In this document: piece by piece, positions 1-34,733 of the stretch
Position numbering within the stretch: the first letter of the stretch is position 1
How the letters are laid out: the number at the start of each line of letters is the position of its first letter
NCBI GenBank assembly: GCA_903919315.1
Contig: CAIXHP010000017.1
Coordinates: 1-34,733, forward strand
Reading direction: 5' to 3'
DNA: 34,733 bases
Source of the DNA: an uncultured Pseudomonadota bacterium
GTDB taxonomy: Bacteria > Pseudomonadota > Alphaproteobacteria > UBA9219
Program-made: the position numbers and the translations under genes
The notes under the pieces: model-generated
Told to the model about the DNA's origin: nothing
Database searches by the model: none
The model's input: the letters and a program-made list of their open reading frames with translations, nothing else

Positions 1-579
1 CAGGAGGGTGATGAGAGGGTAGTCAGGATTGAAGGACAGCAGCTCGATTTTCTGTCCGCCGTCGCGGCCCAGCTGTTTAACCATCACCTCGCCGTTGCGC
101 GTGCGCACGGCGACGCGGTCGCCGCGACGGGGTTTCTCGGCGGGAGAAAGAACAATGCGGGCGCCTTCGCGATAAACGGGCTCCATGCTCTTGCCGCTGC
201 GCCCCCGTACGCGGCAACCACCGCTCTTTTCTAACGTAAACGGACGGGGCTCGATATTGTTTTTTAGGGGATATGTCGTAAAGCCCAAATCGACCGCCCG
301 ATAATATTCCCTGCCCCGCCATCTTCGCGCCGAATTTCCCGCTATGCCTAGCGCGGAGAGGAACGCATGGTCTTCTGGAAGATGTGTCGCGACAACACCT
401 TTCAGGAACGTGCTTTTCCCAGATGCTTTCGGTCCCCAGCATGAGACGACGACGGGATTTGACGGAAATTTTCGATCCGCTACAAGTGGCTCTACGAACG
501 ACCACCCCAGCACAGATCCCAATCGCTGCATCTCATCGGCACTAGAAATCTGAAACGTCAGAACACGCGGCTCACTCAC
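1..579 (-). CDS. Partial P-loop / S24 peptidase-like protein (runs off left edge)
   Basis: The minus frame is open from about 591 to the window edge. Two GTG starts are possible (591 and 579); 579 is chosen because GGTGG lies just upstream. The first half reads ADEMQRLGSVLG, then a hydrophobic strand and a Walker A motif GPKASGKST (about 426-403), loosely like TsaE-type ATPases. The second half (about 235 to 1) is an S24/LexA-type peptidase domain: GKSMEPVYREGA carries the presumed catalytic Ser and EVMVKQL the presumed Lys, and it continues into LLSFNPDYP, as in alphaproteobacterial CI-like regulators. The usual helix-turn-helix and linker of such regulators are missing. Both halves are in one frame with no stop between them; I checked the codon register across the join. 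It may be a true fusion or a recombination seam. The 3' end lies outside the window. Confidence 0.6.
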   Translation of the reverse strand, partial: MSEPRVLTFQISSADEMQRLGSVLGWSFVEPLVADRKFPSNPVVVSCWGPKASGKSTFLKGVVATHLPEDHAFLSALGIAGNSARRWRGREYYRAVDLGFTTYPLKNNIEPRPFTLEKSGGCRVRGRSGKSMEPVYREGARIVLSPAEKPRRGDRVAVRTRNGEVMVKQLGRDGGQKIELLSFNPDYPLITLL

Positions 580-612
580 AACACCAACCACCCAAATGCA
601 CGGCCCTTGAAA

Positions 613-933
613 TCACGCCCGGTTTATAGAGGACTGCTCAATCTCAAGCACCGTCTGATCCGCTTTGCGAACGAGCGTAGCGAGTTCGTCGGCTTCCTGC
701 CAACGACGACGGAGGATGTTCAAATATACTTCGCGCTCTCTTCCCCTCACGTCACCTTTCGGCGGAGCGTCGCGACGTGTACGGTATTCTTGATAGACCT
801 TCTCAGCGCGCCATTCGAAATAAGGCGCGAGTTCTTCGATTTCGAGCTCTTCAAACTGCTGCAACGTCAGCGCCTGCCGCACCATCTCGGCGACATAAAC
901 ACCATAACGTTGCTGGAGCTCGTCAAAAATCAT
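613..933 (-). CDS. Small charged protein of unknown function
   Basis: A 106-residue protein starting at ATG 933, with GAGG about nine bases upstream. It is rich in Glu, Arg and Gln and looks mostly helical (for example LTLQQFEELEIEELAPYFEW and a later REREVYLNILRRRWQEA). It has no signal peptide or membrane segment. It starts three bases after the upstream small gene ends, and the P-loop/S24 frame follows about 34 bases downstream, so the three probably form one operon. Size, charge and company resemble small phage or mobile-element genes, but I recognise no family. Confidence 0.6.
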   Translation of the reverse strand: MIFDELQQRYGVYVAEMVRQALTLQQFEELEIEELAPYFEWRAEKVYQEYRTRRDAPPKGDVRGREREVYLNILRRRWQEADELATLVRKADQTVLEIEQSSINRA

Positions 934-936
934 GGC

Positions 937-1143
937 TCAGTGCCTCGTCTGATACAGCATATTGTCCGTCATCGCCCGCACAACGTTCTCAAACCGTTGC
1001 TCCGGCGTCAAATGGGCAACCTGATCTTTGTGGATGCCTTCGAACTGCTCCAGCATGCGCAGGATGGAGCTAGCATTGTCTCTTCCAAATCTTTGTTCAA
1101 GCTCGAAAAAATGGAGCGGTTCAATGCTCAATGGGCTCGGCAT
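937..1143 (-). CDS. Small protein of unknown function, first gene of left-edge operon
   Basis: ATG at 1143 is preferred because GGGGGA sits six bases upstream; a GTG at 1155 in the same frame would add four residues. The product is about 68 residues, beginning MPSPLSIEPLHFFELEQRFG, with a helical middle (SSILRMLEQFEG) and ending in LYQTRH. No domain is recognised. The gene lies directly downstream of several palindromes and is followed after three bases by the next small gene, so it is probably co-transcribed with it and with the P-loop/S24 frame. Confidence 0.55.
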   Translation of the reverse strand: MPSPLSIEPLHFFELEQRFGRDNASSILRMLEQFEGIHKDQVAHLTPEQRFENVVRAMTDNMLYQTRH

Positions 1144-1153
1144 ATTATCCCCC

Positions 1154-1165
1154 ACAACATGTTGT
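1154..1165. promoter_or_regulatory. 12-bp perfect palindrome at start of left-edge operon
   Basis: ACAACATGTTGT is a perfect palindrome immediately upstream of the Shine-Dalgarno of the first small gene. It partly overlaps a second inverted repeat, GTTGTTTT (1161-1168) with AAAACAAC (1177-1184). These are plausible repressor-binding sites, perhaps for an S24-type regulator; that link is inference. Confidence 0.35.
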
Positions 1166-1311: not shown

Positions 1312-1632
1312 TTATTGCGCCAGATGAACCTTGCGCGCCTCGTCGACCTTATCGGCGAGTTCCTGCACGATATGATGGCGAGAAATGTCGAGATTGCGCG
1401 CTTTAAAATCATTCTCGATCTTAGCCACCAGCGCCGCATGGTGGGGAATCATCAGATCAATATCGAGAACGGACTTCACATACAACTGAGCCTCTTCGGC
1501 TCGCAGCCCCATTTGCTCGGCCGCCCAACGGGCCATCGCCTTGGCAGCATGAGCAGCCACCATAAACCCAATCTCGCGATCGAGTTCATGCTTGCGCTCA
1601 AAAGCTCTTTCTCGCCGTTCAAATTCCGACAT
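1312..1632 (-). CDS. F1-ATPase inhibitor zeta subunit (DUF1476 family)
   Basis: This 106-residue protein matches the alphaproteobacterial DUF1476 family, whose Paracoccus member is the zeta subunit that blocks ATP hydrolysis by F1-ATPase. Visible hallmarks are the N-terminal FERRERAFERKHELDREIGF, then AKAMARWAAEQMGL, YVKSVL and a C-terminal ELADKVDEARKVHLAQ. Length is normal for the family. ATG 1632 has GAGGAG five bases upstream. The gene follows the ferredoxin gene by 30 bases on the same strand, so it is likely the last gene of the crotonase-to-zeta operon. That would tie control of the ATP synthase to a redox operon, which is inference. Confidence 0.85.
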   Translation of the reverse strand: MSEFERRERAFERKHELDREIGFMVAAHAAKAMARWAAEQMGLRAEEAQLYVKSVLDIDLMIPHHAALVAKIENDFKARNLDISRHHIVQELADKVDEARKVHLAQ

Positions 1633-34586: not shown

Positions 34587-34643
34587 ATGACCGACCATAG
34601 TACCGGACTCATTTTTGAACACCCTGTAATATCAGCATGTTAG
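34587..34643 (+). CDS. Possible 18-residue peptide
   Basis: ATG 34587 has GGAG eight bases upstream and opens MTDHSTGLIFEHPVISAC, then TAG. It follows the phasin terminator. With no conservation data it may be chance; it overlaps the possible minus-strand partial gene. Confidence 0.2.
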   Translation: MTDHSTGLIFEHPVISAC

Positions 34644-34733
34644 GTTGTCTTTTGGGGGCTGAGGGGGCGGTAAAGAATATTTTTTGGGCTTCGTTTTCTG
34701 CTCCGGCGAGGAGCCTTGCGAGAGTTTCGAGGC
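34609..34733 (-). CDS. Possible C-terminal end of a gene entering from the right edge
   Basis: A minus frame is open from the window edge to TGA at 34609-34611. It reads about 40 residues, including LARLLAGAENEAQKIFFTAP and ending MLILQGVQK. Another minus frame stays open to a stop at 34632, with a Lys/Pro-rich reading, so the correct frame is not settled. Either would be convergent with the phasin gene. No family is recognised. Confidence 0.3.
   Translation of the reverse strand, partial: LETLARLLAGAENEAQKIFFTAPSAPKRQPNMLILQGVQK

Follow-up and report, generated by a model that had tools for sequence, protein, structure and literature searches.

LexA/CI-like regulators of the HTH-S24 type have an N-terminal DNA-binding part and an S24 domain (PF00717) with an Ala-Gly cleavage region upstream of the catalytic Ser, and their action as a switch needs both the cleavage region and the whole fold. 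A gene of this kind is common across Alphaproteobacteria in the collection of bacterial genomes that we searched. Eight genomes of the same bacterial family as the one studied here carry a full-length orthologue with 51–70% identity, and of 88 related loci 85 have the gene at full length, by which we mean a match that begins no later than residue 6 and extends at least as far as residue 195. The HTH label for the N-terminal part comes from inspection of the sequence, and no HTH Pfam model matched it. In a minority of the relatives the catalytic Ser, the catalytic Lys or both are lost, leaving, for example, E/G, A/G or D/G pairs (loci L051, L052, L048, L055, L118, L121, L124, L126, L137, L138, L143 and L146–L148). 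The sequences suggest that some of these orthologues may work as repressors that are unable to cleave themselves.

We analyzed a locus in which the end of such a gene shares a reading frame with an ATP-binding P-loop motif. The window, by which we mean the whole 34,733-nucleotide stretch of DNA that was analyzed, is contig C17 of a 2.4-Mb genome in 70 contigs, starting from base 1 of that contig. A first-pass annotation made from the window sequence alone had read the frame either as an unusual ATPase-protease switch protein or as a repressor gene whose 5′ end had been replaced by a mobile segment. The window sequence alone could not show that C17 ends at position 1, or that the S24 half copies, almost letter for letter, sequence found on two other contigs, C68 and C59.

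Results

On the minus strand of the window, from position 591 to position 1, a frame of 197 codons is open from a GTG and runs off the end of the contig. As the first-pass annotation had reported, the Walker A motif GPKASGKST (residues 53–61) and the catalytic part of an S24 domain (residues 132–197) lie in this frame without interruption. It had also noted correctly that the HTH and linker are missing before the S24 part and that the sequence becomes more AT-rich, the GC content being 63% at positions 1–199 and 54% at positions 200–591, with a minimum of about 50% at 251–350. The seam that it placed near 235–300 does exist but lies slightly outside that range, at 199/200, where a base-by-base comparison with C68 shows that identity to an intact S24 gene ends. 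Positions 1–199 are thus a copy of the 3′ part of an HTH-S24 repressor gene, from the region of the catalytic Ser onward, while positions 200–591 encode the N-terminal part of a P-loop protein.

Profile searches of the two halves separately, as the first-pass annotation had proposed, gave a clear match to PF00717 for the S24 half (E = 3.5e-13), confined to profile positions 41–102 of 116. The catalytic Ser (in GKSMEP) and Lys (in MVKQL) are present and align with those of the intact gene and its relatives. The domain is incomplete in that its first 40 profile positions are missing; the fused frame has no counterpart to EAG, residues 90–92 of the intact protein, in the cleavage region, and the N-terminal part seen in the 85 full-length homologues is absent. 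We considered whether the residues EPRPFTLE, immediately before the seam, were the remnant of another S24 gene that had received an insertion; BLAST alignments extend through them, but a shuffle test gave p = 0.18, so that the resemblance to an S24 strand is attributed to chance.

The intact gene is present in the same genome. Read toward its end, contig C68 contains 192 codons from the start of an ordinary S24 regulator, including the N-terminal DNA-binding part; C59 opens with the final 62 codons and the stop codon, with pyrD close behind. Joined through an overlap of 141 bases, the two contigs give a complete HTH-S24 protein of 207 amino acids that ends in WIYRVVWASQ and matches its relatives to the last residue. 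In the C68 gene PF00717 covers profile positions 1–102, compared with 41–102 in the fused frame. None of the 88 related loci is fused at the position of the seam. A paralogue was rejected as the donor of positions 1–199, the only other S24-like match in the genome (on C8) being 26% identical.

When positions 1–900 of the window were compared with the rest of the genome, two further places matched, C68:1–199 (99%) and C59:1–141 (100%, on the other strand). Base by base, C17 and C68 are 99.5% identical over the 199 bases; they are the same over 1–141, differ at position 142 (G in C17, A in C68, a synonymous change) and diverge for good at 199/200. The match of C17 to C59 is perfect over exactly 141 bases, and the end of C68 carries the same 141. 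We searched the genome for a second partner for C59, which extends 58 kb, and found none.

The length of the overlap is informative. Exactly 141 bases are also common to other, unrelated pairs of contig ends, C69–C63 and C54–C50, which meet at a high-copy repeat, and 141 is therefore the k-mer of the assembly (de Bruijn graph, k = 141). Several records from the search of the bacterial-genome collection have contig names containing “k141_”, which we take to be MEGAHIT naming, with 141 as that program's default largest k; this would fit papers quoting “k-max 141”. An exact overlap of length k is thus found at the ends of C17, C68 and C59, with k confirmed elsewhere in the assembly, and C17 and C68 are therefore two branches into one contig, C59. 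A C17 copy with a continuation of its own would give a three-way overlap of precisely 141 bases only by chance.

At the right end of the window (34595–34733) a high-copy repeat begins, which is probably an insertion sequence. Matches of 138–139 bases with 98–100% identity were found at 17 other places in the genome; wherever the end of a copy was seen it sat at the end of a contig, and these copies cause much of the fragmentation of the genome.

Residues 1–131 of the fused frame had no match above noise in Pfam, NCBIfam or PHROGs. The P-loop half nevertheless has relatives in four other genomes of the bacterial family (E = 1.7e-7 to 8e-5), and a profile search added a member in G012 and a second copy in G019, giving a family with members in G007, G008, G012, G019 and G023. 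According to the first-pass annotation, a P-loop half without homologues, combined with a normal HTH-S24 gene in related genomes and a sequencing error here, would have spoken against its reading; the normal gene was found, but the P-loop half does have relatives. Members for which both ends are available stand alone and are 226–253 amino acids long, none of them fused to an S24 domain, and the G008 member is cut by the end of its contig. The family has a Walker A motif and a D[FL]G motif, and in its C-terminal half an FEHS-like motif is followed by strands; it is small, patchy and lineage-specific. G007:C60 (L005 627–2149) has a tandem pair of members that share 50% identity. We rejected the idea that the P-loop half came from a phage or mobile element, as it had no match in phage records, viral contigs or PHROGs.

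The fused frame matches the N-terminal motif and Walker A of this family over residues 6–82 (E = 6e-14). It had no match to the C-terminal profile, so that the P-loop half, like the S24 half, is observed to be truncated. Nor did a search of the rest of the genome at E ≤ 10 recover the C-terminal half, the sensitivity being moderate (in a leave-one-out trial the C-terminal halves of known members were recovered at E = 1e-7 to 2e-3), and we found no reciprocal contig holding the rest of the gene. No homologue spanning the seam was present in 33 genomes of the order, in phages or in viral contigs.

These results bear directly on the proposed ATPase-protease switch. What speaks for it is the single open frame across both motifs and the retention of the catalytic Ser and Lys. 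Set against this are an S24 profile that begins only at position 41, the missing Ala-Gly region, the missing C-terminal half of the P-loop family, the lack of any seam-spanning homologue in the sequences searched, and the chance nature of the S24-like residues before the seam. Since an S24 switch needs the cleavage region and the whole fold, neither of which the fused frame has, and the P-loop part is itself incomplete, a functional switch protein is very unlikely; the intact HTH-S24 gene in the same genome and at 85 of the 88 loci points the same way. We give equally little credence to an expressed, genuine in-frame P-loop::S24 gene beside the intact one, perhaps interfering with the intact repressor through their common C-terminal half.

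Upstream of the P-loop frame the contig looks like ordinary chromosome. The frame starts about 20 bases downstream of a small gene of 106 amino acids (613–933, minus strand), which is preceded by one of 72 amino acids (937–1155, minus strand) and by the gene for ATPase inhibitor subunit zeta (1312–1632, minus strand; PF07345, E = 1.8e-23), an ordinary chromosomal neighbor. A similar pair of small genes occupies the same place after the zeta gene in G007 (L060 3600–4126). The 72-amino-acid protein is 50% identical to its counterpart on G007:C52, where the gene order following the ATPase inhibitor is the same; the 106-amino-acid gene had no tblastn match to its counterpart, a gene of similar size paired with it by position and by eye. 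We found no mobile-element gene at the left end of C17. Of the idea that a mobile segment had replaced the 5′ end of the repressor, the seam survives and the replacement does not, an intact copy being present.

Discussion

The fused frame is probably a contig-end junction, either an assembly join or a minority-strain branch into a single S24 locus, and not a maintained gene product. The left 199 bases consist of the k-mer overlap and another 58 bases, by way of which both C17 and C68 enter C59. The standing arrangement is C68–C59, with an intact HTH-S24 repressor followed by pyrD, and C17 would join C59 by a side branch that an assembler join, chimeric reads or a minority strain had created. 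On C17 the P-loop gene is cut after about 107–130 codons and is in frame with S24 by chance. In favor of such a fork, C17 equals C68 over the shared stretch apart from position 142, the fork point, and C59 lacks a second partner; moreover, the P-loop relatives stand alone and the fused S24 part lacks the region of the cleavage site. For the side branch itself we infer an artefact or a minority variant rather than a second locus that is fixed.

Some of the evidence points elsewhere. Nowhere else in the assembly does the P-loop locus continue, and its C-terminal half escaped the search described above, both of which count against a fork. The mismatch at position 142, being synonymous, also counts against it, since it points to an S24 3′ end that exists in two genuine versions rather than to a single sequence joined wrongly. 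Such observations would fit a genuine rearrangement. A duplicated S24 3′ fragment could have been inserted into the P-loop gene, or a deletion could have joined the P-loop gene to it; either event would have left a chimeric pseudogene, broken but in frame, next to the undamaged HTH-S24 gene. The order of the zeta, 72- and 106-amino-acid genes on C17 is chromosomal and partly conserved in G007, so that this side is real lineage sequence, and the P-loop family, patchy and tandemly duplicated elsewhere, is unstable, which also agrees with a rearrangement. However, both copies run into one and the same contig, C59, with an overlap of precisely the assembler's k, and the second copy has no downstream contig of its own; the structure of the graph accounts for the fork at 142, and the left end of C17 is free of mobile-element genes. 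We therefore regard a rearrangement as a possible but tentative explanation. Under a fork and under a rearrangement alike, there is no new kind of protein here.

The finding is an ordinary one and serves mainly as a caution, in that a striking fusion at the first bases of a contig turned out to have, as its second domain, a copy of the end of another contig over the assembler's k-mer. Before a contig-end fusion of this sort is called new, it should be compared with the remaining contigs of its genome. If the junction were real, it would illustrate on a small scale a broken gene that carries a duplicate of a repressor's end.

Three known systems can be compared with the frame. Its likeness to TsaE (PF02367) is a weak profile resemblance around Walker A and the next strand (hhalign probability 66%). 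No member of the P-loop family has a Pfam match above cut-off; for PF02367 the fused frame gave no hit and one relative reached 14.2 bits against a cut-off of 26.6. We rejected TsaE as the identity of the P-loop half, and the genome's proper TsaE is on C51. With the P-loop family the frame has in common the pattern ..F.I..A.EM..LG...G..F..P..., Walker A and then the D[FL]G motif, but S24 sequence stands in place of the C-terminal half. It differs from the alphaproteobacterial HTH-S24 orthologue in having no HTH, linker or Ala-Gly region and a 3′ end cut by the end of the contig, whereas its residues 132–197 are the sequence of the C68/C59 gene itself, with the Ser-Lys pair of this LexA/CI-like protein kept.
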